From Astropecten irregularis (taxonomy: Eukaryota > Echinodermata > Asteroidea > Paxillosida > Astropectinidae): DNA of 64,000 bases. The notes below the pieces were generated by a model, which saw nothing but the letters and a program-made list of their open reading frames with translations, searched no databases and was not told where the DNA came from. The translations under genes were made by a program, and so were the position numbers. Positions 16,184 through 61,987 of the stretch are shown piece after piece. Numbering within the stretch: the stretch's first letter is position 1; each line of letters starts with the position of its first letter. Location: the NCBI GenBank assembly GCA_963971285.1, contig OZ020260.1, forward strand, positions 11,380,798 to 11,444,797, given 5' to 3'.

Positions 16184-16700
16184 ATTATAGAACATCTACT
16201 GGACGATATGTGCTAAGTGTGATCTGAACCTCTTGGTACAAATATTTGGACTGTTGAGGGTATTTGAAGTGGAACCTCTACCTCGTAGTATTTGACGTTA
16301 TCTCTTCTTTGGACTCTCACTGCCGCCTTGATGTCGAGGAGCAACCCGCCCCTGCCGTCAGGGTGCCCCCGCCCCACCAGAACCTAGAGGATGACAGCCA
16401 ATGCATGCTACAAGACAAACTTGGCAATTGTTGGCCACTAAATCAGGAGAGAAAAAAAACCAAAGCTACGGGACTCAAACTGGTGCGAGGGAGCACACCG
16501 GAAGCTGGGACCCCGCCCAGGCATTTTGTTGCCGGCCGTACAGTTGATGGAGGGTGGGGCAGCGTAGATTTGTATCCGCTTACATACGGACGTATTTATC
16601 ACGAACTACAAGCAAAGAATGCATTCAAACTCAGGAATGGCCGGTCATCAGACGGCAGTGTTTGCATCTTTGCTGTTGAGACTAGCAGGACTTATCTGTG
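16184..16700 (+). CDS. TGFBR3: TGFBR3-like exon 2: 5' UTR and signal peptide
   Basis: The acceptor tttcctgtacag ends at 16183 and the donor GTAAGT starts at 16701. Coding begins at ATG 16619 (A at -3), with ATG 16637 in the same frame, and an in-frame TAG at 16565 rules out anything further upstream. The peptide has a hydrophobic core AVFASLLLRLAGLIC typical of a secretory signal. It ends in phase 1 with G, joining GT of the next exon to give Gly, and signal-peptide exons often end in phase 1. A different frame of this exon is also open for a long way, as described in the findings. The gene's other exons make this frame the convincing one. Confidence 0.8.
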
Positions 16701-31700: not shown

Positions 31701-34700
31701 GGTACTTCGAATTGAACGTTTCTCAATATGCATTATACTATCCAAAGCACCTGTACTTCTCACCAAGTAAGTTTTTATTGCCATAAATTTTCAGAGTCAT
31801 TACCAAACGTATGCAATGCCTTTAAAAGATCAAAATTGTTTTTTGGTCATTGGTTTGACTCTTTTCTGGATAAATACAACTGTACAGCATTTCAGGCAGA
31901 GAAATTTTATGTTTCTATCACATCACTATCTTTATGCCCTGTAAGATGTAAATCTATGAAGATTTCTGTTTCGATATGCTACCTAAAGTATGATAACTAC
32001 CTTTAAGAAGAGGCATTCTTTGTCCAAACCTATACAAAGGTCTACATGTAGACACTTACATTAGGCACGTTCTCACACTACAAAAAGCGCGACTATTTGG
32101 AACGCACTCCAAATCGCGACCCAAATAGTTGCGCTTTTTGTTGTGTTCCCATAGCCAAAAAAGCGTGACCCAAATCGTACCGGTACGATTTCTATCAAAC
32201 ATCGCGTACGCAGTGAAGCGTGAAGTTGGCATGCATCCTGTGCTAAACTCGCGGGCCCGCCTTGCATGATTGGATATAAAAAACCGGTATTTTATGGTGC
32301 ACCGTTCACACAGCAGATAATCGCGACTAGTTTGCAAAAAGATGCACTATTAGTGCGATTTCTAATAGTCGCGATTATTGTGTTCCCACACAAATAAGCG
32401 CGACTATTTGGGTCGCGCTGCAAATTTGACCCAAATAGTCACGCTTTTTTGTTGTGTGAGAACGTGCTTATTGTACACTAGCATAGCTTACTGACGGACA
32501 AAGTAAGAACAAGCAAACATGCATTTGATGCATCCTACCAAGCTTGCACGTGTACTGATGTATGTACATAATAATGTACATGTAACTTCAAAAAACTTTC
32601 CAAACTGTCCAAGCCTGTAAGCCTTTCCCAAATGATGTGAGACGGATGGTTTGATTTCTTGATTATTTGATGAACGGCCATACATCGAACGGTTCAGTTT
32701 TACTGATGCTGCATCTGCATGTACAGTTCTATGGAATGACTCACTTGTATTTGATTACACAATATGTTGGTATAAAGTGAGCATTTAGGAGCTCAATTGA
32801 AATATCGCTCGAGATTTGATACATTAGCGACAGCTACCCGCAGTTTGCGAAATTCACCATTTGTACGCATGAATTAATCAATTCAAGTAATAAACTGCTT
32901 TAATCTGCCCAGCAATCAAAATAATGACCTGAAATATACGTAGGCTTTAGAGTTACATGTAGGAGGGCCAGATGTTTTAATACTCGTTTGATCGTTTAGA
33001 AATGCTGCTAGTAAAGTATGTACATGAATTATTTCATTTGATTGATTGGCAGGTGTGTCAAGCTCGCAGACCTGCGTACCGCAGACTTTGCAGAGTTCCC
33101 AGCACAGTGTCCACGCCTACACGGAGCAGGCCCGGCAGTGCCTGTCGGGCTGCGTGGGTGCAGCCAAGTCAGATATCAACCTGCCGGAGGTGCACGTGGT
33201 CAACGCTCGCTGGCCGTCACCAGCATCTCCATCCTCTACCTCATCATCATCATCATCATCGTCAGCGACGGCAGACTCAGAGGCTGGCCAGCTGAGGGTT
33301 GCCGACTTCCACTTTGCAACGGCGCAGGCGGTCTTCTACGCTCGGTCGCTGGTCTTTGTGCTGAACTCCGCCACGCCGGTCCGGTGGAATGTGAAAGGCG
33401 AAGGCATGACCTCGATCCCTTTCTATACGATAAAAATTGTGGTAAGTACCTTTGGAAAATAAAATAAAACCCAAACAACTCACACGGTTTGATAGTGCCA
33501 GGATGGAAGTTTGGTGGGTGGCTAGTTTGTAAAGTTAAGCTCAGACCATAGAGCTATATATATTAAAGGGTTCATGCAGTGCTTTTTTTAGTTAGACAAG
33601 TTATTTTATTGCCTTCATACAGAGAATATACATGTACTGACAAATAATGAATGGCAAGTCTTATTTTGGTTTCAAACCAGCATTTGGTTTTCCTTTGAAT
33701 GGCTTTGTAATATATGTTACATGTACATGTATATTCCCATTGCAGAGACTCTTTAAAAGTACTAGTGCGCTAGCTTCTTGTAAAAAGTGATGCCTGCTGG
33801 GCGCATCCATGTTTGTTCACAAACCTATGGAAAACACAAAATTGTGTACGTTTTTTGTACGTTCATTTGCATATCTGCGTTGTATTTTATACAGGTGAAG
33901 CCAAATACGCCCGAAATCCGACACACCTTCGGTAAATGCACGTTTCATTTAGGACCGTGCACGCACACGCTCTGCACTTCAGTCACGCAATGATTGCATG
34001 TATCATCAAGACGCGGTACCTGTTGTGGGTATTTGTGCATTGCATATTGAGTACACTCTTCGAAAGGCATTCCAGTCAAAGTTTTCTTGTTAGCTACAGA
34101 CACGCACTCAAATTCAAAATGACTGCGCCCAGGACGGCTTCAAAGCGTCTACGCATGGAGAACGCGGAGCTAGCGCTCTAGTAATTTTAATATAGCTCTA
34201 TGGTTCAGACATAAACTTGCCAGACTTTGGTTACAAATCCCAAATTTCATGCACCATGCGATGCATGATGAACTAGCTCCTAGCTGAGTCTGTGTCCGCA
34301 TAACCCTCACCCCCTCCCAAACGACTTGCATAATTCCCATATAAAAGTTTTTTTTTAAATGACAAAGATGTCACAAAACCGACAGTCATCAGCAATCAAT
34401 TTTATTTACAACTTTGGGAAGGGGGGATTGTTGGTAGTACTATGCAGGTGACATAACACAGCTTTCGTAACACAGCTTTGACTGCCCTCTGACTAACCTT
34501 GAACCCCGAGCGACACAAGAGGTGAACGTGAATGACTCCCCTCCCGTACTAGCCCAGTAAATGTCAGCTCAGCGTTCATACACACACCCCCTCCCCCTTC
34601 TGTCTCTATGTATTCATTCCCTAGGCTGTCCCCCATTGATACAGGGGGCGGTTTAGAGGGGGGGGGGGTTCGCTATTCAGGATGAGCTATCCTGTTTTTT

Positions 34701-37700
34701 GTGGAGGGGAAGGTCTGTATAGGAAGGGGGGAGGGGTTGTATCGGTTGGCTCACTCGTTGGGATAGGTCATGTGTGGGGGAAGCGGAGGGGACTGAACTT
34801 TTGTTTGGATGCCTGCCGAGACACTCATTCAAACATCTGTTATCACCCCGTCACTGTGTCAGAGTACATTGGGCCCAGTGCCCAAGTATGTATTGTATGC
34901 ACTTCATGCCAACCTGAAACATTCGCCTCCCTCATCATATGAAAGACAACGAAACAAAAGTTGGCATTTTCTATTATAAGTTCAAATTGTGGTGCTTGCT
35001 GAATGTTTTTAAATTATTCTGTTGAAAGATTTGATTCGGAGGCAGCCATCCGCAGAAATTGTTTGGTTCAATTTGACTTATCGTTAATGTTTGTTAGTTT
35101 GTTGCTTTTTTGTGTGTGTGTTTAGTTCCTGTATTGTTGACATTTGTTTAGAAGCGGATGTCAGAACAAACTGAGACTGTCTGGATCAGATGCTCAGTCG
35201 ACCAAATGAACAGAAGCATTCATGTTCAGATCAGTCGTTGAACTCACATATGCAATTCATGATGTGGCCTGACTTGAACTATTGATGATTCGGTCTTACA
35301 TGTACATGTACACAGCACTCTACCTACAGTATAGGAATCATTTCTGCTTGCACTGCAAAATCCTTTTGGATTCAAAATGAAAATTCAATATTTAAGTGGG
35401 CTTTTGTATTGAAAACACAAATTCCAATCTTACTAGTCGCACATACAATATGCTCATATTTTATCTGGAATTAAAAAGTTGTCCTTGATACAAATGGACG
35501 AAAATTACGACTTGTTTGGGGTAAGATTAATAAAGAAATCTATAAAAATACAACCAATATTAAAACATTTTAAAGGTATAAAACATGATTGGTAAAGGTC
35601 ACATAAAATAACACACATCCCTGTGAAAATTTGAGCTCAATCAGACATCTGAGTCCCGAGAAAAAAAGCGAAAACCCGACTCAACTAGCACTATCTTCAT
35701 ACTCTGAAAGTACCGTAATATGTGAATCTGTGACCATTTCTGTTTAGGTACATGTTACCAATCCTGTACTGTACCTTTAACAAGACATGATATTTCACAA
35801 AAATTTATCAAGTCTCCATAGGTTTTTACATACATTTCAAGATTATTACAAATGCTTAAATTTAGGAGGGCCTGATGCGTTTTGATTCTAACAGGATCTT
35901 TCTCAAAGGCAAACATGTACAGGTAACATGTACCCAAACAGAAATGTTCACAGATTTACATATTACGGCACTTTCAGAGTATGAAGATAATGATGGTTTA
36001 GTCGGGTTTTCGCTTTTTTTCTCGCGACTCAGACGTCTGATTGAGCTCAAATTTTCACAGGGATGTGTGTTATTTTATGTGACCTTTACCAATCATGTAT
36101 TACATGTATGTACATGTATTAGAAAAATCCTGTTAGGCTCAAAATGCGTCAGGCCCTCCTAACTTTAAGCATTTGATATATTTCAGGTCATTTTGGCTGA
36201 TGAGCAGTTTGCAGCAGTTTATTACTTGTATTAAAATTATTTACAAACCGAAAAAATAGTTTTGATCTCAAGATCTCTAAGAATTTTCTTTGTTTGTTTG
36301 TGCTTTCCTTGCTGACAGGTACCGAACCATTCATGTGACTATGTCACTTGGAACGCTGAGATTTCACAGTCAGTCCGTCGTCTGTGCTCCTCATTACCTC
36401 AAGACAACTCAGAACTCTTAACCTTTGTTCAAGAACAATATGAAAATGTCAACACATTCAGTGAGGTGATGGATGCAAATGCCATCAGCCTTCTCATCGG
36501 GACGGGTAGGTGTAATACTGGCGTGGCACTCTGACCCTTGGTCTCCGTGTCAGTTTGCCTCTCTTTCCTGGACTGTCTGTCTTTGTCTTTCTGTCACCTT
36601 CTCCTGCTTTGTTTTTGTGTCCCTTTGTTCGTGTTTCATTGTGTCATTGTGTCCCTTTGTCCATGTGCTGTTGTGTCGGTATGTCCCAGTGGCCATGTGT
36701 CACTGTATCCATGCGTCACTGTGTCCTTGTATCCTTATGTCCCTGTGTCCCTTTATCTATTGTGCCAATTTGATGTTTCAATGTGTCATTGTCCGTGTGT
36801 CATTGTGTCCGTATGCCCCAGTGGCCATGTGTCTCTTATGTCACTGTGTCCCTGTATCCATGTGTCACTGTGTCCTTGTATCCTTACGTCCCTGTGTCCC
36901 TTTATCTATTGTGCCAATTGATGTTTCAATGTGTCATTGTCCGTGTGTCATTGTCTACCTGTGTCATCCTTGTGTACCAGTGTCCTTGTGGCCCAGTGTC
37001 TCTTGTTTCCCTGTGGGCTTGTGTCATTATGTCCCTGTGTCTCTTGTGTCCCTGTGGGCTTGTGTCATTTGATGTGTCCCTGTGTCAGTGTGACACTGTG
37101 TCTCTTGTGTCCCTGTGCCCTAGTTCCATTGTGTCTTTGTACCCATGTGTCCTTGTGTCACGGTGTTCCTGTGCCCTTGTGGCCCTTTGTCTGGTTTTCG
37201 ATTTGAGTTTGCAATACAGATATTTTCAGGAATGACCATTTTCACAAGCCCTATGACCAAGTTGTTGTATATATATTGAATCATTTGTAGTTCCAGATAA
37301 TGTCAGGGTTTTTGTAATATTTTCCTTCTTGAGCTTGATAAGTTATGAAATTGTCTTCTTTTTTGAAGGTGTGGGCTCCAAAACCCCCGCCACATGTGTG
37401 CTCCAGGAAAACTTCCAGACGCCAGACGTAACGGCTCGGCACATTGTCGAGCAACCTACCATCGGTTGCCAATCGAAGGACATCACCGGACCGCTGCAGC
37501 CGGAGTTCCACATCATCCTCCTAGACAATGTGGATGGTGCAGGGGCAGCTGCCGTCCCGACGCAGGGCGCCAGGGAGCTGCAGCAGGTCACAGTCGAACT
37601 GCAGCCCGGCAGCAACAGCGACGGCACCTGCGATGTCGTCCTAGTCTTGGTCGCTGAAGCCAACGTAACGTGGAGCCTCAGTGCCAAAGATAGGGGAGGA

Positions 37701-40700
37701 ATAACGCAAGTTATGGTATGTGGATTCAAGCCCGCCGGAGTCCAAAGAAATGCCAGTGTTTAATTTCCACTAGGAAGACAGACCTCTTGCTCACAGTTAA
37801 ACAACAATATTGTCAATATGTGTTGTGGCCTAGTGGTCCTATGTGTCGCACTCAATATCTTGTGGTCAATCTACAGATTGTGGGTTCGAATCAAGCCTTG
37901 GGCTGTAGATTGACCACAAGATCTTGAGTTACAACCATGACAACACGCCAGACCACTAGGCCAAGGCACCCCGGAATGATGAGGTTGTCATAACCATCCT
38001 CTTGGTATTCATCTTCAAGCCTGTCTTAATGACGGATTTTCTTTCCTTTCCTCCCAAACAGTCTCCCAACTTGGTGGACATGAGGAGAGACCAGATGTAT
38101 CGCTTGGAGAGGCTTGAGCTGCCCCGTAACATCGAGGGACTGCTGGCCTGGGCGGAGACGGAGGAATGGCCCTTAACAACCTTCACCAGGGCCGAATCGG
38201 CCAATAAGTTTGTCGTCGTCTTGGGTAAGAGATACTTTCAACATAGGTGTTGCATTTTGTTGGCAGGACAAGTTTCCTAGGGCCAATTTCATAGAGCTGC
38301 TTAGCACAAAAATTCGCCGAGCATGACATTGCTGTCTTCGTAAAAACAGGATTAACAACCAAATTTCCGTGTGTTGTGTATCACTTGCAATTTGTTCTTT
38401 GGCTGTTGTTCGCTGACCATGAATATCAAATGGAATTTTCAATGGTGGTTTGTTTTACTGGGCTAGCTATTTTTGTGCTAAGCAATTTATTGTGCTTAGC
38501 AGCTCTATGAAATTGGCCCCTGATGGTGAAGCATCTGTGGTTTGTGGGGCGTAGAATAATTTGGGGAATTCAGTGATGACAAGTTTTGAAATTCTTACAA
38601 TGCCAGCAAGGATAATACTGATACTGCCAAACCTTAAAGGTACTATCATACTTTGGTAGCATACCTAAACAGAAATCTCCACAGATTTACCTATAACTTA
38701 CAGGGTATAAAGATAGTGATGATAGAAACATACCATTCAAATTGTTCTGCCTGAAATGCTGGACTTATCCACAAAAGAGTAAAACCATTGACCAAAAATA
38801 ATGTTGATCTTTTAAAGATAAAAAATAACTGTAAGAAATACTGTCGGCATTTTTCACTGTTTTCTCAAAAAGTGGGCACCTTGTGGGACTGAAAATTTCA
38901 CAGATGACTGTTACTGTATCTACCTTGATAATTTTGCCCATGAATCTGTATTTCTTTGACAAAAACCAAAGACCAACGCCTTAAACACATTTCAGGAATA
39001 TTAGCTCTTGAAGTAAAAAAAAAAACATACTTCATCTAAAAACTTTCCCTTCCAACTCGCAGAGCACAAGAACAAGCCCACAAGTGATGCCCCCAAGTTG
39101 GACTTCACCAAGATGTTCACCCAGTTCACCTGCCTGCCGGACGGCATCCAAGTCCGCATCCTGCGCCGGGTCCTGGACCTGTACAAGCTGTCGGCCGACA
39201 ACATGATGCTGCGGGACCACTCCTGCAAGGCCGTGGAATCCGGCGACGATTACGTCATCGACACGCAACACGACGAATGCGGCACCACGCGGACGGAGAT
39301 GGATACTGGACGCGTTGTCTATCACAATGAGGTTAGCAATGTCACTTGTTTTGTCAGTGTCAATGACAGAGATGACATAACCGTCACCGAATCGTAAGGA
39401 CCTTTTGAGCCAGTGCAAGGACTACGCTTTCCATGAAGGCTAGGTTGTAAGACATAGCTGCCAACCATTCCTATTTTGGAGGAATCATTCCTGTTTTGGG
39501 GTTAAAATGTATCACTTTTTACAAGCTCTTGACAACAGATTCTGATTTTTGGCTTGGAAATGCACACGTATACCTATGTAGTTTGCTCTGTGATTCCTCT
39601 TTTTTAGCAGAAGTATTCCTAATTTCCTTTAAGATAGGTTGGCAGCTTTGGTAAGAGGTTATGCTTAAAGATGCCATCATACTTTGGTAGGAAACCAAAA
39701 CAGAAATCTTCACAGATTTCCCTATAACTTACAGAGTATAAAGATGGTGATGGTAGAATCATACCATTAAAATGTTTCTGTCTGAAATGCTGTTTTTATC
39801 TAGAAAAGAGTAAAACAAATTTCTGTGGATCAGTTTGCGGAAACACCATGTAAGAATCGTTCATACTTCTCATAAGGTCTCAACGTTTCGACTAGCCTGC
39901 TTTAGTCATCATCAGGAGATGAAGTGGGAAAATATGAACGATTCTTACATGGTGTTTCCGCAAACCGATCCACATACCAATTGTCACCATGCAAAGCCTC
40001 AAATCTTTCTTAAAACCAATTTACCAAAAAAATTTTGATCTTTGGAAGATCAAAGATAATGGTGGAAAGATTTTTAAAATACCCTGGGCATTTTTCACTG
40101 TTTTCTCTAAAAGTGACTGTTACTGTATCTGTCTTGATATCTTTGCACGTGAATCTGTATTTCTTTGACAGAAACCAAAGTAAGATATTACCTTTAAGAC
40201 TATCATAATCCTCGATTACAAAAGTTACAATATAAAGCAACCAACAAATAGCGATTCTTTCAAAGTTTTGAAATTTTACCTCTAGGTGATTTTCACCAAC
40301 TCGGAGAGTGTCATGGAAGGGAGCGGAGAGTCTGACCTAGAGAGACTGATGGGCGGGCTACCAGTCGACGATGAACAATCTCTGACATACCGCGTCCCAA
40401 TCACCTGTGAGTACAGCAGCACCGGTGAGGTCCTGACCGATGACTTGTTGACCCCTAGTAAGGTGAGTTGGATCAGGCATGCCGGGGTGCGAGTCCGTTA
40501 TTATTATTATCCGTTTTTTTTTTTTTTCTCCGAATCCTTAAGTATAAAAACTCAAAAATTTTGACAGAAAATGTAAGATTTAGCAGTAAAAAGCGTGTCT
40601 CCTCAAAACGACCCAAGACCGTTGATTTATAAGCCCTGGTGACCATACATTCTGTATTTATTCTTAAATGTTTGAAATTCGGCCAAAAAAAAACAAACCT

Positions 40701-43700
40701 GACCGACCGACCCAATATTTCAATTTTTCCACTTGAGGGCAACACAACAATTTTTTTTGTCGGCCTTATATGGTGCCGTTATGACCAATTCACACCCGTT
40801 GTGAAACAATTTATAAAGGATATCTGCCCATGTCAATTTATGTGATATAATAGTGTCTTAGTCTGGTTAATTCAAGTGTTGGCTGTGTACGTGATGTCTG
40901 ATAAGTCAGTGCACCAGACTTGAGTCAGAATGAACTCACAAGGGGCTTGAAAATGGGTGTGTGAAAGGTTGCTCTTAAACACAGGAATATATGCATCCAG
41001 ATAATTATACGCGTACGACGCAAGGACTGATGTACATTAATGATTATCACTGCGTACTTATTGCAGCCGGAGATTACGATCACCATGCACATGTTCACGG
41101 GTAACAACTTCCAGCAGAAGGTGGCTGCCTTTCCCCACACCGTGCAGACTGGCGAGCGGGTCTACTTCGAGGTGGCCCTCCTGGGCACCTCCCACCTGAG
41201 GATCGTGCCCAGCCAATGCTGGCTGTCCTCAGGCCTCAAGATGCTGACCGAGCAAATCCTCATGCTCATCTACAAAGGGTGAGTAGAGAGCACCAATGGA
41301 GACCAAGGTTTGGAAAAAGGACTTGCATATACAGGGCTCGAAATATCCACTAGACCGTGGACCGAGTCTAGTGATTTCAGTGTCGGTCTAGTGAAGTGTG
41401 TACTGCACTAGTCCAACTGTCTAGTGACTGAGTTTGTTTTCCTTGCACAATTAAAATGGTGCCTAAGTTGATGATTTTTGACACAATTTTTCATACAATT
41501 ATGGTTTTCCTATGTACATGAATGCCACAGGTCTAGTGAAAAATGTTCAGGTCTAGTAAAATGTTTCAGTTACTAGACCTGCTGCTGCTGTCCAGTGCTT
41601 TTTTTGTCACGAAATTCAAGCGCTGATATACGTTAGACGTTGACTCCAAATCCAATGCTTCATGCTGTTTGATAACCTGTTTTTGTTTAATTTTGTCTTG
41701 AAGCTGTGCAAGAGAGGAGTCTTTGATCTTCCACCGTGATGTCACAGGTTCAGGCCAGTCCACACGATTCAGCTATGAGGTACCGGACATACAGTGGGAT
41801 GCTGTGTACTACATACTCTGTGAGCTAGGCGTCTGCTCGGACGATGGCACCGGGAGCGATAAAGGCGTACCACTGGTAAGGCAAGAGTGAGGAAAGATAT
41901 GCCCATATTGACCATGCCCATATTGCCACGCCCATATTGGCCACACCCACATTGGCCACACCCATGCATGTGTGAGTGTGTTAGAATATCCACCTGTTTT
42001 GATTATTGTCAGTAGTCACTAGTATTGTACTTGGCCTTCGTCCATGCCACGCCCATTTCGCACACATGCTTGACACATGCCACAACCATGCCACACCCAT
42101 ACGTGTGTGAGTGTGTTAGAATATCCACCTGTTTTGATTCTCGTCAAGAGTCTCTAGTGTTGTACTTGGCCTTCGTCCATGCCACGCCCATGTCGCACAC
42201 ATGCCTGACACATGCCACACCCATGCGTGTGTGAGTGCCTTAGAATATCCACCTGTTTTGATTCTCGTCAAGAGTCACTAGTATTGTACTTGGCCTACGC
42301 CCATGCCACGCCTATGCTGTACCTATGCCACACCCATGCCACACCCTTCATATTCGTCACTTTCTTTGTCCTTGCAGTGTTCCAACATCATGGATCCAGA
42401 TACGGGATGCCTGGTAGTGAACAAGCAGAACGGCCTGGTGGTGGACTTCCCAACTGAGAGCATATACCTGGGACCGTTCAAGACGACAGCCGCGCCCATC
42501 AACACGGGCAACGAAGACCCCTTTGTATCCTCAGTTTCAGGTAGGGTCACTCTCATTGTGTCATATAGCAGGGATGATGATTTCCTAATATCGCAATACG
42601 CTAAGCAAAATGCTAACCATAGCAGCATGTGCATTGTGGGTTTGCATAGTTATAATGCACATTTGCTATTGTCAAGTCACTGAATGGTTAGCCTTGCCAT
42701 TTCCAGTGGTAACAGTCAGCCAGTAAATTGAAATGATACAGTAATCAGAAAAGAAGATTGTTAATTAATTGATTAAAAGATTATTAATTAGCTAAGTTGT
42801 TATTAAACTCAGCCCACATCTTCAAATTGTAGAAATACAGCAATGAGATATCGAGTCAAAACATGTCACACCCATCGGGGCTCAATTTCTCAGCTCTGCT
42901 AACCACAGAATTTGGTGCTTATGATCCTTATTCTACGCTTACTGAGTTAGCGTAGAATATTTGCGCTTGCTAAGTAAGTGAGAAAAACCTACATGCACAA
43001 CTTAAAATTCTCAGCTAATCCATGGATTTGGAACTTGTAAGCACGGTATTTGCAGCTTGCGTAAGCATCGATTTATCAATGGGGTTGAGAAAGTTTCATC
43101 TACGAATTCTTATTGATTACAATTCGCTTATTGATAAAATTACACACCATTGTCATGAATCTTTTATTTCACCCTTCATTAAAGGTAGTATCATACTTTG
43201 GTAAGAAACCAAAACAGAAATGTTCACAGATTTACTTATAACTATACAGGGTATGAAGATGGTGGTGGTAGAAACATACCGTTAACATTTTTCCGCCTGA
43301 AATGGTGTATTTATCCAGAAATTAGTAAAACAACGACCGAAAATCTTTTTGATCTTTTAAAAGATCAACAATAAAAGAGAAAAGACTTAAGAAATACTGT
43401 GGCTGTTTTTCACTGTTCTCTCAAAATATGGGCACCATATGGGACTGAAATGTTCATAGATGATTGTTACTGTATCTGTCTTGATATTTTTGCTCATGAA
43501 TCTGTATTTCTTTGACAAAAACCAAAGTATGATATTACCTTTAAGTACGCCTATTCAACAAATTTGACAAAAAAAATGAATTCTCTGATTTTAATGGCTT
43601 TGTATCAATCAAAAATTTGAAAAACCAAAATTACCTCCCCCCCCCCCCCACTTCATAAAAACAAATATTATGTCCAGTGTATATGTTACCATGGCACTAG

Positions 43701-46700
43701 GGGTTAGTAACTTAGTAGCCACCTGTGTGTCCCAGCAAATTCTCCCCTCTGTACGGTTCTCTACCCCTCACCCCTTCCCCTCCCACTCACAACACAACAA
43801 CAACACACACACACAAATTGATCTACTTCTCAATGTTCCATTCCTAATCCAATAACCCTTGTTTCTCGGTGGGGGTACCAAGCCGTACTCACCCTGCAGC
43901 CCCAGGAACAAATTAGATTACTTTGGAGTGCACACTCTTGCTGGGCCTGTGTACCCTCTGAGATGGTGTCGGGATATTTATCGTTGCACGTTGTGTTTGC
44001 CTCCCAGTTGGCTTGCAAGCAAAATAAATAAGTCCTCGATATTCTGACCTCGGTCTAGTTTTTTTTTTTTTTTTTTTAATTGAGATCATATTTTTTTTTA
44101 AAGGTAGGTCTTTGGCCTTGCTTGATTGTGACAAAGGGGAAAAGGTCGTTTGCCTCGAATGGTGTGAGATGTTTGGCAGTTCTGATGATCGTAGGTGCCC
44201 TTGGTGATTGCTTTGGTGCTCCTGGTGATTGCCTTGGTGCCCCTGGTCATTGCCTTGATGCACCTGGTGATTGCATAGATGCCCCTAGTTATTGCCTTGG
44301 TGCCCTTGGTCATTGCCTCGTTGCCTCTGGTCATTGCCCCTGTGCCTCTGGTCATTGCCTTGGTGTTCCTGGTCATTGCCTTGATGCCCCTGGTCATTGC
44401 CTCGGTGCCCCTGGTCATTGCCTTGGTGCCCCTGGTCATTGCCTCGGTGCCCCTGGTCATTGCCTTGATGCCCCTGGTCATTGCCTCAGTGCCCCTGGTC
44501 ATTGCCTCGGTGCCCCTGGTCATTGCCTTGATGCCCCTGGTCATTGCCTTGGTGCCCCTGGTCATTGCCTTGGTGCCCCTTGTCATTTCCTTAGTGCCCA
44601 TTGTTATTGTCTTGGATTCACTAGTCATTGCCTTGGCCCCTCTGGTCATTGCCTTGGTGGCCCTAGTCATTGCTTCGGTGCCCCTGGTCATTGCCATGGT
44701 GCCCCTGGTCATTGCCTTGGTGCCCCTGGTCATTGCCATGGTGCCCCTGGTCATTGCCTTGGTGCTCCTGGTCATTGCCTTTGTTAACCCTAGTCATTGC
44801 CTTTGTCAAATGTACTTAAAATGTGTAAGTTAAATTTCATCAGTGTTGCTTGCTGACACAGTGTTAAATTGTATGACATAAATGTCCTTTAACATGTTTA
44901 ACCTCTGTATCAATAAAAACAGTTATAATTTATTGAAATTTTTATTTTCAGGTGTTAGGAAAGAACCGGATAAAGTGTCTGAGCCAACTGAGGAATGCAG
45001 AGGTATTGAATTTGAATATCGATTCGGAATCTTAATCAAAAGCCATGTGCAACATTGGTAACAAACCAAAACAGTCTGTTCACAGTCAGACGTATAACTT
45101 TCGGTTTATGGTGCCGGAGCAATGAGAAATGTATTACCCCTCAAATTTGAGTTGCAGAACATTTTTTGGAGGAGTTTTTAGATTCGCTTTTTAAGATCAA
45201 TCTCAGTGGTACGTGAAAATGGACCCCGCGGTACTACCAGTGTTATTGTACGCGTACTCAAACTCGAACTCGAGTACAACTCAAGTACCACTAAGTTCTT
45301 GGCACGTAATCGGTCATAAGTACTCGTAGAAAACAAGTTCTCGGCCCGTACTCATAATTTTGTACTCGGACTCTTCCCCGAACTCTACAAATTGTATTAG
45401 GTGAACTCGAGCCCAGTTGCAAGTACTCGAAAGAAAATTCAATTTTTGTTTATATCAATTTTTTTGGCCAATGACTTGATTAAAAAGTACTCGGACTCGG
45501 CCCGTACTCGGCACTGTGTGTACTCGGAAAACCCGGTACTCAAATTTTGGTACTCAACTACAACACTGTACTACTGTAGATGCATTGGAATGTATTTGGG
45601 ACGCAAAGGATTTTTCGTTCATAGTCAAAGATTTCTGTGTATTTATGTTTTTGATATGTCGTTTAAGCATGGTATTTTTGGTCTTGTCCCCAACCTCCAG
45701 ATGAAGGATTGGGTACAGGGCCAGCCACAGCCATAGCCGCAGCCTCGTTCGTCATGGGCTTGGTGCTCATGGCGGCTTTGTGGTTCATCCATACGCACAC
45801 AGGTAAATGTCTCCAGTTTCCTCCTCGCCTTGAGTTTGTTCTCAGTCCACTAGCAAATGCTGGTAGCAAGGACTTTAAGAAAAGCAAACTGGGTTTACTT
45901 GTATCAGGTGCGTTTTCCTACAAGGGACTCTTAGGCTGCGTTCTAGCAGTTACTCCTGGTAACACGAGTATGATGCGCATGCAATACTTTCTGGTGCAGG
46001 AGTATACTCCCCATATCTAGAGAGTATACTCTCGCTGACCTGAGTGTCGTACTCTAGCCGTTCAAGCGCTCAGGAATATACTTGTGTTAACACGAGTAGC
46101 TCGCTCGAACACAGCCTCTGAGAGTCGATTGATCATGAGAGAAGAAATGGTACAGGGGTCAATTTCACAAAGCCCTACGATCGATCGTAACTCGAGTTAT
46201 GAAGGATAACCCATTGTATCATGCGTAGTGCTGCAATACATCACATGTCCTACGATTGAAAGTACCGGGTAAGTTACGATGAGTTTGGTGAAATCGACTC
46301 CTGGTCTCTTTATGAATGAATAGTGCAGACTTCGATGTTAAAGAGGATGTTCAACACTCAACAAACCTCGCCTTATTTGTTAGAACTATAATCCTTGAAT
46401 TACTTGACATGAGAAAACAAAATATTTATCTCACACTGAACACAGAAAGAGAGTCTTTTTGGATGATTTTTCTCTCATAATTATGCTCAGCCTGCAAGCT
46501 CCCCAAAATTCAGATTCTCTGAATTTCGTCAATGGGGGCAGCAGACAAATCTGTGTGATTTTGTGACGTCAGATATGGGAGCCTTGTTTTTTTCTCATGT
46601 CAAGTAATTTAAGGATTATAGTTCCAACAAATAAAGCGAGGTTTGTTGAGTGTTGAACATCCTCTATAAACCTTGGCAGGGATTTTCGGGAGATTCTGGA

Positions 46701-47101
46701 AAATTACTTGAAGGATTTGTAGGAATTTAGAGAACTTTTGTTGGAATTTTGCAGGCTGTGTATGATCTTGGAAGATAGAGGAGGCCAGAGTGTAGGAGCT
46801 TGTATTTGAATTTGTTGGTGTTTCTTTAACAGGTCCACACACCGGGCCACCCCCCTCAGCCTCTCCATGTACGGTCAGCACAGCCAGTTCACCCTCTGCC
46901 AACGGACACTTGATGAATGGCACCATCCCCAACGGCGCCATCCCTAACGGCGCCATTCCCAACGGTGTCCTCCCAAACCACCCCGTGGTTGCAGTTGGCA
47001 ATGGCCACCTTCCGAGTGGCTTCATGGCCAGCAAACTCAACCCGAACGGGATCCCCTTGCAAGGAATGCGACACGTGGATCCACTTCCGGAGGACGTTTG
47101 A
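16619..47101 (+). CDS. TGFBR3: Betaglycan (TGF-beta receptor type III)-like co-receptor, whole gene span
   Basis: This is the spliced coding region: 13 coding exons, 860 codons from the ATG at 16619, or 854 from the next in-frame ATG at 16637, whose context (gga before, G after) is also strong. Human betaglycan has 851 residues. Layout: signal peptide (about 1-27), orphan domain (28-389), ZP-N (about 404-490), Ser-Gly site (Ser492), ZP-C (about 540-720), membrane helix (about 746-767) and cytoplasmic tail. Seen matches include NLPEVHVVNARW with human PQEVHVLNLR, CKAVESGDDYVI...ECGT with CKAKMNGTHFVL...GCGT, and ALWFIHTHTG with ALWYIYSHTG. Endoglin shares this layout but fits less well in ZP-N and lacks the glycosaminoglycan site. 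The family presents TGF-beta ligands and inhibin at the cell surface. All twelve junctions are GT-AG with matching phases. Whether it is a one-to-one orthologue or predates the TGFBR3/ENG split is not shown here. Confidence 0.93.
16701..17589. other. Start of intron 2, nothing recognised
   Basis: AT-rich intronic DNA without identifiable features. TACATGTA motifs begin near 17370. Confidence 0.4.
17590..17976 (+). repeat. Long inverted-repeat element, family I
   Basis: The ends are TAGGCACGTTCTCACAC and the inverted GTTTGAGAACGTGCCTA. The subterminal parts are built of aaaagcgcgactatttgggt and aaatcgcgaccc units in both orientations. The unique centre (gaagcgtgaagttggcatgc) also occurs in the copy at 32062-32470, same orientation. 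About 390 bp, no protein. Confidence 0.8.
17977..19274. other. Intron 2 DNA, nothing recognised
   Basis: Non-coding. Frames of 60-90 codons here have no domain or splice context. Confidence 0.4.
19275..19540 (-). repeat. Family G element, diverged copy
   Basis: It shares ggctcaggctcaggctt, ctgttttccttttcaaact, gcagccaaaagcctattttga and gcctgagcctccgtttcg with 183-400 and 12934-13234. The outer left end is lost. Confidence 0.6.
20187..20410 (+). repeat. hAT-like short element, end TAGGGCTCGAAATA
   Basis: It begins TAGGGCTCGAAATAGTTCTAG and runs to ggaaaaaaagttagcac near 20400. The reverse-oriented relative at 23621-23904 ends TATTTCGAGCCCTG. The content (ctagcc, cacttcct, ttagcac blocks) matches in inverted order. 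No 8-bp duplication was found. Confidence 0.5.
20411..21836. other. Intron 2 DNA, nothing recognised
   Basis: TACATGTA-rich to about 20720, with a short CT run near 20767, then ordinary AT-rich DNA. Confidence 0.4.
21837..22908. repeat. Family D MITE split by a hAT element
   Basis: The left part starts GGGGTCAATTTCACGAAGCC at 21837. The right part after 22799 contains gggctacaatgcatcac and finishes gatcgtaagttacatcagtt...gtgaaattt. Together they match the blocks of family D in order. The right part looks older and more altered. Confidence 0.6.
21905..22790 (-). mobile_element. Non-autonomous hAT element with perfect target duplication
   Basis: It begins TAGTGCTGTGCAT and ends ATGCACAGCACTA. 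ACCTATGC is duplicated at 21897-21904 and 22791-22798. At 886 bp its open frames show no transposase. A truncated relative in the other orientation is at 8008-8600. It sits inside a family D MITE. Confidence 0.9.
22909..23620. other. Intron 2 DNA, nothing recognised
   Basis: Non-coding with TACATGTA clusters near 22940-22990 and 23555-23590. Confidence 0.4.
23621..23904 (-). repeat. hAT-like short element, relative of 20187-20410
   Basis: It ends TACTATTTCGAGCCCTG at 23904, the inverted form of the TAGGGCTCGAAATA end. The internal blocks ttttttcctggctagc and ggaagtgagtctggctagcc match the complement of the other copy. Confidence 0.5.
23905..25759. other. Intron 2 DNA with a hairpin-GAAACGTC motif
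   Basis: No gene was recognised. A 10-base C run lies near 24040. The block agatcctgctaggatcgaaa at 24815-24834 followed by cgtcaggccctc belongs to a dispersed hairpin family found at several other sites. Confidence 0.4.
25760..25910. repeat. Tandem repeat of TACATGTAGTACATAGTG units
   Basis: A unit of about 44 bp made of gtacatactacatgtagtac and atgtagtacatagt is repeated about three and a half times. It looks like local amplification of the TACATGTA palindrome that is common across this intron. Confidence 0.85.
26059..28089. mobile_element. Unclassified DNA transposon with TAATGTCAGTCAC repeats
   Basis: The ends are GGGCAATTCCAC and GTGGAATTGCCC, flanked by ACTA on both sides (26055-26058, 28090-28093), a likely 4-bp target duplication. 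Inside are eight direct copies of TAATGTCAGTCAC (26421, 26586, 26603, 26633, 27684, 27699, 27885, 28064). Such repeats could bind a transposase. One short basic reading frame (26920-27174) is present and no catalytic domain was recognised, so it is probably non-autonomous. A sound superfamily call cannot be made from this sequence. Confidence 0.75.
26920..27174 (+). CDS. Short basic transposase-like frame inside the 26059-28089 element
   Basis: This 84-codon frame ends in TGA. After about 25 ordinary residues it turns strongly basic, with RMPETGAERQAECRKNVKE and RGLNAAYKQTRKEMRRN. The AERQ-x-x-R pattern followed by a charged helix recalls N-terminal regions of several invertebrate transposase-like proteins. 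That is a recollection of a pattern, not a database match. The first part contains tttttgaatag, which could be a splice acceptor, so this may be one exon of a longer original gene. It is perhaps only a remnant. Confidence 0.35.
   Translation: MQSFTFLNRGIHYKGLTLHKLYRRVRRMPETGAERQAECRKNVKERGLNAAYKQTRKEMRRNKGHQKENKRTKYLRLVRESCER
28094..28944. other. Intron 2 DNA, nothing recognised
   Basis: Non-coding with TACATGTA motifs near 28200-28230 and 28410-28500. Confidence 0.4.
28945..29001. repeat. Perfect 27-bp palindrome with a 3-base loop
   Basis: TGAATATTAAATGATTTTGG...GGGA is followed by the loop CTT and its exact complement. Bits of family A sequence (tttttgtcaaagaaatgc) lie just upstream. It may have arisen by strand switching during replication. 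Confidence 0.95.
29060..29133 (+). repeat. tRNA-like sequence (Thr-type anticodon AGT), probably a SINE head
   Basis: The A box TGGCCTAGCAGG and B box GGTTCGAATCC are well formed. The T arm GTGGG/CCCAC and anticodon stem TCTGC/GCAGA pair fully. The anticodon loop has eight bases instead of seven, and the acceptor stem has an imperfect outer pair. If read as a tRNA the anticodon would be AGT (Thr). These defects and the non-coding setting favour a tRNA-derived repeat. Confidence 0.6.
29481..30013. repeat. Family E MITE interrupted by family A
   Basis: The ends are GGTTCCGCGCTC and GAGTGCGGAGCCCT. Family A is inserted at 29545-29910. The uninterrupted relative at 59902-60065 (reverse) shows the empty target as ccaattaac. 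TGACGTCA lies at 29494-29501. Confidence 0.85.
29545..29910 (+). repeat. Family A MITE inside family E, TTAA duplication proven by an empty site
   Basis: It begins AGGTAATATCATACTTTGG after TTAA (29541-29544) and ends ATGATACTAACT before TTAA (29911-29914). The 59902-60065 copy of family E has a single TTAA at this place. The 366-bp interior is shared by the other family A copies and does not code. Confidence 0.88.
30014..30547. other. Intron 2 DNA, nothing recognised
   Basis: Non-coding. A reverse 104-codon frame overlapping the family E element has no recognisable domain. Confidence 0.4.
30548..30709. repeat. Family F MITE with a CRE octamer
   Basis: The ends are AATAGCGCTCCGCACTTA and TTAGTGCGGAGCGCTATT. 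TGACGTCA lies at 30684-30691. The block cagacaaacattgcaa and its inverted mate are shared with 11734-11869 and 63451-63578. Confidence 0.85.
30798..31237. repeat. Fragments of hairpin-GAAACGTC repeats
   Basis: The block agaaagatcctaccaggatct at 30800-30820 and the later gagcagtctgcagcagttta match blocks near 36120-36230. On the minus strand near 31155-31105, CTGAAGA, a 6-bp stem (GAACAG/CTGTTC) and GAAACGTCGAGAG follow in order. Confidence 0.5.
31242..32002 (+). repeat. Family A MITE interrupted by family B
   Basis: TTAA flanks both sides (31238-31241, 32003-32006). The left end is AGGTAATATCATAC, split by a small tgtacatgtac insertion, and the right end is AAGTATGATAACTACCT. Family B occupies 31446-31821 and the family A interior resumes directly after it. 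Confidence 0.85.
31446..31821. repeat. Family B MITE nested in family A
   Basis: The ends are AGGGATTGCATACGTTTGG and CCAAACGTATGCAATGCCT, flanked by TTAA at 31442-31445 and 31822-31825. It contains a small palindrome, ctgagaagcgttacggccat...cttctcag. It is 376 bp and non-coding. Confidence 0.9.
32062..32470 (+). repeat. Family I element, second copy
   Basis: It has the same ends (TAGGCACGTTCTCACAC, GTGTGAGAACGTGCTTA), the same centre and the same orientation as 17590-17976. The arrangement of the tattag/gcgatt units near the right end differs. Confidence 0.8.
32471..33052. other. End of intron 2
   Basis: Non-coding. The part at about 32866-32985 is an inverted fragment of the hairpin-GAAACGTC family (caaaataatgacctgaaata, aggagggccagatg). 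The acceptor ttgattgattggcag closes the intron. Confidence 0.5.
33053..33441 (+). CDS. TGFBR3: TGFBR3-like exon 3: orphan domain, first part
   Basis: Residues 28-157, acceptor ag at 33051-33052, donor GTAAGT at 33442; phases 1 in and 0 out. Two stretches match the start of vertebrate betaglycan: CLSGCVGAAKSDINLPEVHV, and LVFVLNSATPVRWNV against human VVFLLNSPHPLVWHL. Between them an inserted serine run coded by TCA repeats (33236-33262) has no counterpart in the human protein. All three forward frames are open across this exon, but only this frame shows the family motifs. Confidence 0.92.
33442..33539. other. Start of intron 3
   Basis: Short non-coding stretch, nothing recognised. Confidence 0.3.
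33540..34210. repeat. Possible element with ends CAGACCATAGAGCTATAT
   Basis: The sequence tcagaccatagagctatatata near 33541 is mirrored by atatagctctatggttcagac ending at 34211. The 600 bp between is non-coding. Only the ends support an element. Confidence 0.5.
34211..35573. other. Intron 3 DNA with a G-rich stretch
   Basis: A G-rich tract (about 34620-34790, with a 10-base G run near 34660) stands out. The remainder is ordinary non-coding sequence. Confidence 0.5.
35574..35776 (+). repeat. Family A2 MITE, short copy
   Basis: The ends are AGGTATAAAACATGATTGG and CCAATCCTGTACTGTACCT, with TTAA on both sides (35570-35573, 35777-35780). It is shorter in the centre than 2871-3194. Confidence 0.8.
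35849..36172. repeat. Foldback repeat around a family A2 copy
   Basis: The arms aaatgcttaaatttaggagg...(35849-35902) and ...cctcctaactttaagcattt (to 36172) pair over about 54 bp. Each arm holds the hairpin block atcctgttag/ctaacaggat. Between them is a reversed family A2 copy (about 35905-36110). Confidence 0.65.
36319..36505 (+). CDS. TGFBR3: TGFBR3-like exon 4: orphan domain
   Basis: Residues 158-219, acceptor gctgacag, donor GTAGGT; phase 0 in, 1 out. NSELLTFVQEQYENVNTFSE matches human betaglycan NEHLLNWARKEYGAVTSFTE in position and spacing. It is too short to stand out as a long open frame. Confidence 0.9.
36590..37195. repeat. Intron 4 minisatellite of TGTGTC/CCTGTGTCCC units
   Basis: About 600 bp of tgtgtccctgtgtcccttt-like short units, with a longer-range duplication (36705-36775 resembles 36845-36930). 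It opens long Cys-Val-Pro-Ser frames in all three phases, which are artefacts of the repeat. Confidence 0.9.
37369..37715 (+). CDS. TGFBR3: TGFBR3-like exon 5: orphan domain, second half
   Basis: Residues 220-335, acceptor ttttttgaag, donor GTATGT; phase 1 in, 0 out. IVEQPTIGCQSKDITGPLQP followed by EFHIILLDN matches human GCVMSSQPQNEEVHIIELI, and VVLVLVAEANVTWSLSAKD matches LILILKCKKSVNWVIKSFD. NVT is a possible N-glycosylation site. The exon is GC-rich against its introns. Confidence 0.92.
37825..37962. repeat. Foldback of a tRNA-like repeat
   Basis: The arms tggcctagtggtc...gtggtcaatctacag and the complement ctgtagattgaccac...gaccactaggcca pair over about 55 bp with mismatches. The loop carries a B-box-like gggttcgaatc. 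This suggests an inverted duplication of a tRNA-derived SINE in intron 5. Confidence 0.75.
38062..38224 (+). CDS. TGFBR3: TGFBR3-like exon 6: end of orphan domain
   Basis: Residues 336-389, acceptor ctcccaaacag, donor GTAAGA; phase 0 in, 1 out. IEGLLAWAETEEWPLTTFTR and ANKFVVVL match human GNLVKWALDNGYSPITSYTM and ANRFHLRL. Confidence 0.92.
38280..38520. repeat. Family C MITE
   Basis: The ends are GGGCCAATTTCATAGAGCTG and CAGCTCTATGAAATTGGCCC, with inner ttagcaca motifs in both orientations. The reverse copy is at 50409-50616. It is in intron 6. Confidence 0.85.
38638..38980 (-). repeat. Family A MITE
   Basis: The left end is AGGTACTATCATACTTTGG after TTAA (38634-38637). The other end is CCAAAGACCAACGCC before TTAA (38981-38984). 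The full reversed interior is present, in intron 6. Confidence 0.85.
39063..39331 (+). CDS. TGFBR3: TGFBR3-like exon 7: linker and ZP-N
   Basis: Residues 390-479, acceptor ccaactcgcag, donor GTTAGC; phase 1 in, 0 out. After a linker of under 20 residues the ZP-N half begins. MLRDHSCKAVESGDDYVIDT and ECGTTRTEMDTGRVVYHNE match human TLLDPTCKAKMNGTHFVLES and GCGTRPRWSALDGVVYYNS. Human betaglycan has roughly 80-90 residues between orphan domain and ZP, so the linker here is much shorter. Confidence 0.93.
39667..40199 (-). repeat. Family A MITE interrupted by a foldback repeat
   Basis: It begins near ATGCCATCATACTTTGG and ends CCAAAGTAAGATATTACCT before TTAA. The element at 39825-40015 splits it. 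It is in intron 7. Confidence 0.75.
39825..40015. repeat. Foldback repeat with a hammerhead-like core in its loop
   Basis: The arms gtggatcagtttgcggaaac...gttcat and the complement atgaac...gtttccgcaaaccgatccac pair over about 40 bp. On the minus strand the loop reads CTGATGA, T, GACTA, an 8-base loop, TAGTC, GAAAC. The tail (ccaattgtcaccatgcaaag) recurs at 10250-10270. Confidence 0.75.
40286..40462 (+). CDS. TGFBR3: TGFBR3-like exon 8: glycosaminoglycan site and ZP linker
   Basis: Residues 480-538, acceptor tacctctag, donor GTGAGT; phase 0 in and out. VMEGSGESDLERLMGGLP contains E-G-S-G-E (Ser492), the classic acidic Ser-Gly context for glycosaminoglycan chains. Human betaglycan carries its attachment serines in the corresponding segment. 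VPITCEYSS supplies the next ZP cysteine, matching IVVFNCSLQ. Confidence 0.9.
40463..41066. other. Intron 8, nothing recognised
   Basis: Non-coding apart from a T-rich run near 40515. Confidence 0.5.
41067..41278 (+). CDS. TGFBR3: TGFBR3-like exon 9: ZP-C
   Basis: Residues 539-608, acceptor ttattgcag, donor GTGAGT; phase 0 in, 2 out. ITITMHMFTGNNFQ, TGERVYFEVALLG and LRIVPSQCWLSS follow the order of human NITFNMELYNTDLF, NGHVYVEVSVTK and LGFAIQTCFISP. Confidence 0.93.
41332..41600 (+). repeat. Possible hAT-like fragment, start CAGGGCTCGAAATA
   Basis: The start CAGGGCTCGAAATATCC resembles the ends at 20187 and 23904. Many tctagtga/cactaga units follow. No matching right end was found, so the boundaries are rough. 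Confidence 0.4.
41704..41875 (+). CDS. TGFBR3: TGFBR3-like exon 10: ZP-C
   Basis: Residues 609-666, acceptor gtcttgaag, donor GTAAGG; phase 2 in, 0 out. CAREESLIFHRDVTG and YYILCELGVCSDD match human CPKDESVKFYSPKRV and LLFLQCELTLCTKM, preserving the cysteine spacing. Confidence 0.92.
41890..42355. repeat. Intron 10 minisatellite, 125-135 bp unit
   Basis: About three copies of a unit with ttagaatatccacctgtttt (41981, 42116, 42240) plus catgccacgcccat blocks. Shorter catattggccac units lie at the left edge. Confidence 0.9.
42378..42540 (+). CDS. TGFBR3: TGFBR3-like exon 11: end of ZP-C
   Basis: Residues 667-720, acceptor tgtccttgcag, donor GTAGGG; phase 0 in, 1 out. It opens with CSNIMDPDTGC, supplying the last cysteines of the domain, then GLVVDFPTESIYLGPFK. 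Similarity to vertebrates fades beyond the cysteines, as expected for the juxtamembrane part. Confidence 0.9.
42541..43178. other. Intron 11, first part
   Basis: AT-rich, nothing recognised. Confidence 0.4.
43183..43540 (-). repeat. Family A MITE, best preserved copy
   Basis: Perfect-looking ends AGGTAGTATCATACTTTGG and CCAAAGTATGATATTACCT with TTAA on both sides (43179-43182, 43541-43544). It is 358 bp, in intron 11. Confidence 0.9.
43545..44171. other. Intron 11, middle part
   Basis: A 13-base C run near 43637, an ACACAC tract near 43807 and a long T run near 44057. No gene or complete element. Confidence 0.4.
44172..44805. repeat. Intron 11 minisatellite, 21-bp unit
   Basis: About 30 copies of a 21-bp unit like ggtgcccctggtcattgcct. 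Because 21 is a multiple of three, all frames stay open, giving long repetitive false proteins on both strands. Confidence 0.95.
44952..45002 (+). CDS. TGFBR3: TGFBR3-like exon 12: juxtamembrane micro-exon
   Basis: Residues 721-737, acceptor ttattttcag, donor GTATTG; phase 1 in and out. It codes a 17-residue charged, probably extracellular stalk (VRKEPDKVSEPTEECR). The exon was found by phase and splice sites, and leaving it out would not shift the frame, so it could be alternatively used. Confidence 0.8.
45239..45567. mobile_element. Short hAT-like element in intron 12
   Basis: Ends AGTGTT and AACACT with flanking GTACTACC (45231-45238) and GTACTACT (45568-45575), seven of eight bases alike. 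The interior is made of tactcg/cgagta repeats, similar in style to the subterminal arrays of 14489-16128. Confidence 0.65.
45701..45802 (+). CDS. TGFBR3: TGFBR3-like exon 13: transmembrane helix
   Basis: Residues 738-771, acceptor caacctccag, donor GTAAAT; phase 1 in and out. The helix ATAIAAASFVMGLVLMAALW is followed by FIHTHTG. Human betaglycan has FAAFVIGALLTGALWYIYSHTG and endoglin a near-identical stretch, so this exon is the clearest family marker. Confidence 0.95.
45803..46154. other. Start of intron 13
   Basis: Non-coding. An agtatact/agtatactc cluster near 46000-46030 and acacgagta motifs occur, nothing identified. Confidence 0.4.
46155..46302. repeat. Family D MITE, uninterrupted copy
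   Basis: GGGGTCAATTTCACAAAGCC at the left, inverted ...tttggtgaaatcgactcct at the right, with cgatcgtaactcgagttatg inside. This copy shows the layout of the interrupted ones. Confidence 0.8.
46342..46675. repeat. MITE with about 77-bp terminal inverted repeats
   Basis: The arms AGAGGATGTTCAACACTCAA... extend to acttgacatgagaaaa on both sides with only a few differences. TGACGTCA lies at 46564-46571. The element is in intron 13; the high arm identity suggests recent activity. Confidence 0.85.
46833..47101 (+). CDS. TGFBR3: TGFBR3-like exon 14: cytoplasmic tail and stop
   Basis: Residues 772-860, acceptor tttctttaacag, TGA at 47099-47101; phase 1 in. The tail is about 93 residues from the membrane, against about 42 in human. 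It starts with a Ser/Thr/Pro-rich part (SASPCTVSTASSPS) like the vertebrate tail. Then come three to four NGxIP units (NGTIPNGAIPNGAIPNGVLP). It ends PLPEDV, not the vertebrate STA PDZ ligand. Confidence 0.92.
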
Positions 47102-49675: not shown

Positions 49676-49678
49676 GTC

Positions 49679-50046
49679 CAATAAGCCATTTGCGAGTTGA
49701 ATCTGAATTGTATCTGGTACACAGACTTCTTTCATTGCATATAAACACCCCAGATTGACTTCCCCAGACTAAAGACTCTGTTGCTATATCACATGATTCG
49801 GGGCAAGCTTTTGCATAGCGATACCCATCTCTGGAATGGACTGGTTCCTTTGTACCATTCTTATCCATTATGAACTCTGCATTGGTGCAAGACGTCTGTT
49901 ATTTAACCAAGCAAAAGCTTGCCCTGAATCATGTGATATAGCAACAGTGTCTTTTTTCTGGAGAATTCAGGTTTTGATGTTAATGTACAGGCAAAGAATT
50001 CAGTGTACCAGATATTGTTCAATTTTAACTCGCGAAAGGCTTAATT
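49679..50046. repeat. Foldback element with coding-like arms, copy 1
   Basis: The ends AATAAGCCATTTGCGAGTTG and the inverted AACTCGCGAAAGGCTTAATT bound two arms of about 140-165 bp. Both arms contain gcaagcttttgc-type and tgctatatcacatgatt blocks. On the minus strand a frame reads YRYAKACPESCDIATESLVW. A second copy at 62343-62692 keeps the same peptide. Confidence 0.75.
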
Positions 50047-50080
50047 CTCCAGAAAAAGTAGCATTCATGATGCATTTCAA

Positions 50081-58473: not shown

Positions 58474-58592
58474 CTCATGATGGGTATTATACCTGCTGGT
58501 TTTTACCCTCACCTGCTCACCTGGCTCATAGCCTCCCATACCTTTCTGGCTCTCTTCATAGCCAACCCTCCACCGCTATACGGTGCCACTCT

Positions 58593-61983: not shown

Positions 61984-61987
61984 TTAA

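Follow-up and report, generated by a model that had tools for sequence, protein, structure and literature searches.

Betaglycan and endoglin differ in their ligands and in the surfaces involved, as described in the available part of PMC11865472. The gene studied here bears on the origin of this difference. The window was a stretch of 64,000 nucleotides from Astropecten irregularis (contig OZ020260.1), in which a sequence-only reading had proposed a complete betaglycan gene of 13 coding exons. The locus raised the question of whether this gene is real, whether its product belongs with betaglycan, and what that product might bind. Judged from the sequence, it is a real gene of the betaglycan/endoglin family, because of the exon model, the PDB and Pfam matches, and the introns common with ENG. 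We consider it highly likely that its product is a co-receptor with type I membrane topology from the betaglycan/endoglin (TGF-beta type III receptor) family, and the gene is probably a working one.

Exon model and surrounding repeats

The gene was rebuilt from the DNA. On the plus strand, 13 exons between positions 16637 and 47101 were joined into 2565 nt, giving 854 codons and a stop codon without internal stops (Table 1). The splice sites were rechecked, and 12/12 introns had GT-AG ends. The intron phases after exons 1 to 12 were 1, 0, 1, 0, 1, 0, 0, 2, 0, 1, 1, and 1. An alternative in-frame ATG at 16619 gave 860 codons, with an in-frame stop upstream of it. The exons, coordinates, and codon numbers (860 or 854) claimed in the sequence-only reading were borne out. 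The claimed order of landmarks was also upheld, namely signal peptide, orphan domain, ZP-N, Ser-Gly site, ZP-C, membrane helix, and tail. It had further been claimed that phase reveals the short exons. This did not hold for exon 11, which has phase 1 at each end, so that phase cannot demand it. The short exons at 36319 and 38062 stood, and they were strongly similar to betaglycan on their own.

For each exon, the similarity of the peptide to human betaglycan was tested with 1000 shuffles. Exons 2, 3, 4, 5, 6, and 12 were co-linear with human betaglycan, and the similarity of each was matched by 0/1000 shuffles. For exon 9, the similarity was matched by 17/1000 shuffles. Exons 1, 7, 8, 10, 11, and 13 were not significant singly against 1000 shuffles each; exons 7 and 8 were covered by the Pfam matches to ZP-N and ZP-C, which were significant. 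The third-codon-position GC of the joined exons was 0.68, against an overall GC of 0.40 in the introns, and it was low in exons 1 (0.43), 3 (0.47), and 11 (0.38). Intron 1 was 16,352 bases long. The candidates for the first exon were the 489 open stretches from an ATG to a phase-1 donor in the first 33 kb, and exon 1, with either ATG, was alone among them in attaining its donor and hydrophobic-core scores jointly. Downstream, neither AATAAA nor ATTAAA was found on the plus strand from the stop codon to 50081 (47102-50080 scanned), which leaves the transcript without a placed 3' end. The putative completeness of the gene model rests on splice signals and is least secure for exon 11 and the tail.

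Table 1. Coding exons of the Astropecten gene and dispersed repeat families of the window
Feature	Positions	Strand	Basis
Exon 1: signal peptide with the start codon (codons 1-22), phase 1 at its end	16637..16700	+	splice model, first-exon scan
Exon 2: N-terminal part of the first orphan half (OD2), phase 1 to 0	33053..33441	+	phmmer, 0/1000 shuffles
Exon 3: C-terminal part of the first orphan half, phase 0 to 1	36319..36505	+	phmmer, 0/1000 shuffles
Exon 4: second orphan half (OD1), phase 1 to 0; includes the stretch aligning to the TGF-beta binding loop	37369..37715	+	phmmer, 0/1000 shuffles
Exon 5: C-terminal part of the second orphan half, phase 0 to 1	38062..38224	+	phmmer, 0/1000 shuffles
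Exon 6: linker and ZP-N	39063..39331	+	Pfam ZP-N, 0/1000 shuffles
Exon 7: last part of ZP-N and the acidic Ser-Gly EGSGESD (Ser486)	40286..40462	+	Pfam, alignment
Exon 8: ZP-C first part	41067..41278	+	Pfam ZP-C
Exon 9: ZP-C second part (CELGVC)	41704..41875	+	Pfam ZP-C, 17/1000 shuffles
Exon 10: ZP-C end with C661, C671, FG loop/G strand region	42378..42540	+	cysteine columns
Exon 11: juxtamembrane GVRKEPDKVSEPTEECR with Cys730, phase 1-1 cassette	44952..45002	+	splice and similarity ranks
Exon 12: membrane helix, phase 1-1	45701..45802	+	hydropathy, 0/1000 shuffles against human helix
Exon 13: cytoplasmic tail, 89 residues, ends PEDV, stop 47099-47101	46833..47101	+	splice model
Dispersed repeat family	17584-17893, 32054-32361
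Dispersed repeat family	8051-8541, 22238-22731
Dispersed repeat family	29541-29890, 38634-38971, 43187-43544, 61984-62337

Repeats were found in and around the gene. The copies of the dispersed families were 81-91% identical and were spread over the flanks and introns 1, 5, and 10. Tandem arrays were present in short introns, at 36616-37191 (intron 3) and 42073-42346 (intron 9). A minisatellite in intron 10 (44194-44803) consisted of 29 copies of a 21-bp unit. It had stop-to-stop open frames of 235 and 231 codons, one on each strand, and is easily mistaken for coding sequence adjoining exon 11; its plus-strand frame had no Pfam match. Rfam tRNA matches at 29060-29133 (53.1 bits) and 9383-9450 (36.4 bits) may be short repeats derived from tRNAs and not genes. 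A DIRS-like retrotransposon at 52640-58918 carried a reverse transcriptase (PF00078, 7.4e-24), and its matches to RNase H-like and integrase SAM-like domains fell short of their cut-offs. Its inverted repeats (52640-52799 and 58731-58890) were 95% complementary, and the element coincided with a GC-rich block at 52-60 kb.

Domains of the betaglycan/endoglin family and introns shared with endoglin

The protein was searched against the PDB using phmmer. Three orphan-only betaglycan chains were matched at E values of 7.4e-19, 1.2e-18, and 1.4e-18. The human betaglycan ectodomain chain was matched at 7.2e-22, with values of 9.2e-15 for the orphan stretch alone and 0.0011 for the ZP stretch. All four distinct orphan-domain-bearing betaglycan chains in the PDB were matched in this search. 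Endoglin was not among the PDB matches at E values up to 1, where the remaining entries were uromodulin (0.0082, ZP part, residues 404-652) and a sulfurtransferase (E 1). Human endoglin matched the orphan-only betaglycan chains more weakly, at 4.8e-8 to 1e-6; therefore, endoglin is further from betaglycan than the Astropecten protein is. Identity in the orphan domain was 25.1% with human, 27.1% with rat, and 29.4% with zebrafish betaglycan, and 20.5% with endoglin. Between human betaglycan and human endoglin, it was 23.3%. The 25-29% identity to vertebrate betaglycans suggests that the protein comes from an invertebrate, most likely a deuterostome. Endoglin as the closer relative was disfavored by this pairwise evidence from PDB matches and orphan identities.

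The ZP models agreed with the part of the sequence-only reading that concerned them. Pfam ZP-N (PF23344) was found at 7.5e-12 over residues 407-517 and ZP-C (PF00100) at 7.8e-13 over residues 534-650, both above the gathering cut-offs. Four orphan cysteines were common to the Astropecten protein, betaglycan, and endoglin. All 6/6 ZP-C cysteines of human and rat betaglycan were kept; in the same alignment, three were missing from endoglin and four were present in uromodulin. The acidic Ser-Gly motif between ZP-N and ZP-C aligned beside SSGW and ESGD of human betaglycan, sites which bear glycosaminoglycan. The membrane helix (residues 743-761) was the best 19-residue hydropathy window of the protein, with a value of 2.37, and exon 12 was similar to the human betaglycan helix at a level reached by 0/1000 shuffles. 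The tail of 89 residues after HT contained NG[TAV][IL]P repeats and no kinase. No Pfam domain in the tail reached the gathering score, with DUF4589 below it (11.7 bits versus 27). STA, the C-terminal PDZ ligand of human betaglycan, was absent from the PEDV end and occurred internally at residues 781-783.

Intron positions were compared with 13 boundaries of human ENG. Three of the 12 introns had the same column and phase as in ENG, and seven were no more than six columns from an ENG intron of the same phase, where 1.0 would be expected. Each of these counts was reached by 0/5000 random placements. The exact matches were at codons 214, 330, and 766, corresponding to ENG c.523, c.816, and c.1852, so that the intron after exon 3 equals c.523/524 and that after exon 4 equals c.816/817. 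A tolerance of one column gave three introns (6/5000 random placements), and a tolerance of three columns gave four (9/5000). The other five of the 12 had no in-phase ENG partner within six columns. These were at codons 22, 384, 533, 603, and 715, where the nearest ENG introns were 7, 17, 29, 64, and 14 columns off, respectively. The intron before exon 13 interrupts the codon that follows HT, and ENG c.1852 has the same placement in endoglin. Six of the 13 ENG boundaries are in print as splice variants (available parts of PMC8070971, PMC8432115, and PMC8647423). These six alone gave two exact matches (10/20000 random placements), two within three columns (410/20000), and four within six columns (9/20000). 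The sharing of introns is independent of the reasoning in the sequence-only reading, and it supports the exon model and the homology.

An intron-retaining form of endoglin has 14 cytoplasmic residues versus 47 (PMC7033222, in the part available). These tail lengths are in keeping with an endoglin intron after HTR. If the last intron of the Astropecten gene were kept, the reading frame would continue beyond HTG through 45803-46020, where 46020 is the last base of a stop codon. An alternative tail through such retention, parallel to the intron-retaining S-endoglin form, is a possibility only.

The duplication of the orphan-domain halves is already known from structures. In the Astropecten gene, the orphan domain was encoded by exons 2 and 3 and by exons 4 and 5, and each pair had phases 1-0-1. 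Exon 3 resembled exon 5 (15/2000 shuffles), exon 2 had no significant resemblance to exon 4 (391/2000 shuffles), and both pairs taken jointly gave 27/1000 shuffles. The two halves of human betaglycan resembled each other at a level reached by 0/1000 shuffles. Endoglin has one further internal intron per orphan half, ENG c.219 and c.689, and these had no partner introns in the Astropecten gene. Both orphan halves of the Astropecten protein, human betaglycan, and endoglin were placed in a six-row alignment. Here the four internal phase-0 introns, two from Astropecten and the two ENG introns c.360 and c.816 given in the printed sources, fell within 0-4 columns in 6/6 MAFFT settings. We infer that a two-exon unit with phases 1-0-1 was tandemly duplicated into the orphan domain before betaglycan and endoglin split. 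The intron evidence for this does not depend on residue similarity.

Juxtamembrane cysteine and ligand contacts

Exon 11 is frame-neutral, and the junction of exon 10 with exon 12 stays in frame. Its splice score ranked 7 among 206 open phase-1 cassettes in intron 10, with a weak donor (87th percentile). When each cassette was joined to exon 12, exon 11 ranked 1 of 206 (one tie) against the human betaglycan juxtamembrane segment and 16 of 206 against endoglin. Among 5000 shuffles of the exon 11 peptide, 174 reached the betaglycan score, 170 the endoglin score, and 2 both, in tests run after the similarity had already been noticed. Exon 11 is probably genuine, on modest support that falls short of proof. 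Exons 11 and 12 could each be skipped without a frameshift, both being phase 1-1, and a form without the helix through skipping of exon 12 is a possibility only.

Exon 11 carries Cys730. It was located 26 residues before ALW of the helix, the same spacing as that of endoglin Cys582. Between the signal peptide and the helix, the number of cysteines was 19, which is odd. The column of endoglin C516 was occupied by serine. In endoglin, C516 and C582 are the dimer cysteines and the C582 bond is interchain, whereas betaglycan is a monomer, as stated in the available text of PMC8396367 and PMC12492590. Endoglin monomers also occur on cells, according to part of PMC12824264. By analogy with Cys582 in endoglin, Cys730 may link two chains.

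The residues that contact TGF-beta in vertebrate betaglycan were then compared. In the portion of Wieteska et al. 2025 (PMC11865472) that was available, mutations of F49, L210, L213, F250, and D253 in the zebrafish orphan domain abolish TGF-beta binding, mutation of L208 strongly reduces it, and mutations of N82, A158, and I161 in rat ZP-C abolish it. The authors caution that the D253A change disturbs the structure or leads to aggregation. The numbering was fixed on the printed sequences, with an offset of 27 for zebrafish. By alignment, zebrafish F49, L208, L210, L213, F250, and D253 corresponded to R, Q, P, T, V, and Q in the Astropecten protein, and rat N82, A158, and I161 corresponded to K, K, and G. 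This meant that 0/9 binding residues, eight abolishing and one strongly reducing, were kept among those given in that portion. The alignments of L208-L213 and N82 were firm, since they lie in equal-length stretches between conserved cysteines. Those of F250, D253, A158, and I161 were uncertain, and F250 was aligned to V by MAFFT and to A by phmmer.

As background, 66/164 orphan columns invariant in human, rat, and zebrafish and 34/128 invariant ZP-C columns were kept. The chance of keeping 0/6 in the orphan domain was 0.046, that of 0/3 in ZP-C was 0.40, and the joint chance was 0.018, figures to be read with the caveat that surface residues change faster than average. Only 1/5 hydrophobic orphan contacts stayed hydrophobic (F250 to V), versus 22/30 invariant F/L columns. 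Among the other rat contacts, E130 was kept, K86 and D88 were replaced by R and E, and P71, D72, and E81 by M, L, and Y. Zebrafish A249 was aligned to A in an unreliable stretch. Endoglin likewise kept 0/6 orphan binding residues. The pattern is suggestive, but not strong, for a loss of the vertebrate TGF-beta contacts.

Position in the family and comparison with known systems

A tree was built from 179 ungapped ZP-region columns of four sequences, with uromodulin as the sole outgroup. On these columns and sequences, betaglycan and endoglin as sisters was the best placement (AU p 0.73), followed by the Astropecten protein with endoglin (0.35) and with betaglycan (0.20). From the claim of betaglycan identity, membership in the betaglycan/endoglin family stood, and strict betaglycan identity is one possibility among three placements, none of them rejected by the tree test.

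We give about even credence to a single pre-duplication (pro-orthologous) type III receptor, the features of which were later divided, the Ser-Gly site going to betaglycan and the juxtamembrane dimer cysteine to endoglin. It agrees with the best of the three trees, although not significantly, and with the endoglin-like spacing of Cys730, the odd number of cysteines, and the introns common with ENG. In addition, one TGFBR3 gene per echinoderm is stated in the available part of PMC10381214. However, Cys730 depends on the least certain of the exons, exon 11, and the introns beside it are three columns apart from those of ENG. The serine in the C516 column also counts against it, as does the presence of endoglin as a cell-surface monomer (PMC12824264, in part). 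It is a speculative and rather unlikely proposal that the protein is a living form of the single ancestral type III receptor, both a proteoglycan and a disulfide-linked dimer, with a ligand from the TGF-beta family that is not TGF-beta itself. In that case, the vertebrate TGF-beta contact patches (the orphan binding loop, the L208/L210/L213 ridge, and the ZP-C FG helix) would be later inventions of the betaglycan line. The gene supplies a sequence that can be expressed to find out which ligand the ancestral co-receptor captured and whether it formed a dimer.

A one-to-one betaglycan orthologue is possible but doubtful. In that case, endoglin would have split off before or apart from it, and TGF-beta would be bound through the two sites of vertebrate betaglycan. 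The orphan domain was closer to betaglycan (25.1-29.4%) than to endoglin (20.5%), the acidic Ser-Gly was at the matching place, and the six ZP-C cysteines were as in betaglycan. However, the identity gap is small next to the 23.3% between human betaglycan and endoglin, and the ZP-C cysteines can be ancestral because uromodulin has four of the six. Moreover, the AU test rejected none of the three placements, and all nine residues important for TGF-beta binding were changed.

A uromodulin-like ZP-module matrix protein unrelated to growth-factor capture is very improbable. ZP-N and ZP-C are common to many polymerizing proteins, and uromodulin was the next PDB match, but the orphan domain matched betaglycan-only chains at 7e-19 to 1e-18, the other PDB entries at E values up to 1 were the ZP part of uromodulin and the sulfurtransferase, and the helix region matched the human betaglycan helix. 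Just as hard to credit is a decayed copy or an assembly of unrelated exons, since the 2565 nt were open, 12/12 splice sites were intact, and the exons were co-linear with human betaglycan with raised third-position GC, even though the introns are repeat-rich, with tandem arrays in introns 3, 9, and 10.

For a co-receptor of the betaglycan/endoglin family, a mode of action can be proposed by analogy. The ectodomain would capture a dimeric TGF-beta-family ligand through the orphan domain and ZP-C, and a glycosaminoglycan chain may sit on Ser486. The captured ligand would be handed to kinase receptors, and the co-receptor itself would not signal. With less certainty, the ligand contacts probably differ from those of vertebrate betaglycan, and Cys730 may join two chains in the manner of endoglin Cys582.

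The Astropecten protein resembled betaglycan in domain order, orphan domain (25-29% identity), ZP-N, Ser-Gly, six ZP-C cysteines, helix, and length, which was 854 residues compared with 851 in human betaglycan. It differed from betaglycan by four extra orphan cysteines, the loss of one vertebrate cysteine column, the juxtamembrane cysteine, and the 89-residue tail ending in PEDV. With endoglin, it had in common an equally spaced juxtamembrane cysteine and seven introns within six columns, three of them exact in column and phase. In contrast, endoglin was gapped at the Ser-Gly stretch and lacked three ZP-C cysteines, and the Astropecten protein had no RGD and had serine in the C516 column. The likeness to uromodulin lay in ZP-N and ZP-C, and the match was limited to residues 404-652. 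As for other echinoderms, information on betaglycan function is described as lacking in the available text of PMC10381214. The same text records one TGFBR3 gene in each echinoderm; therefore, the family is not new outside vertebrates and the novelty is small. The Astropecten gene may be one of these TGFBR3 genes.
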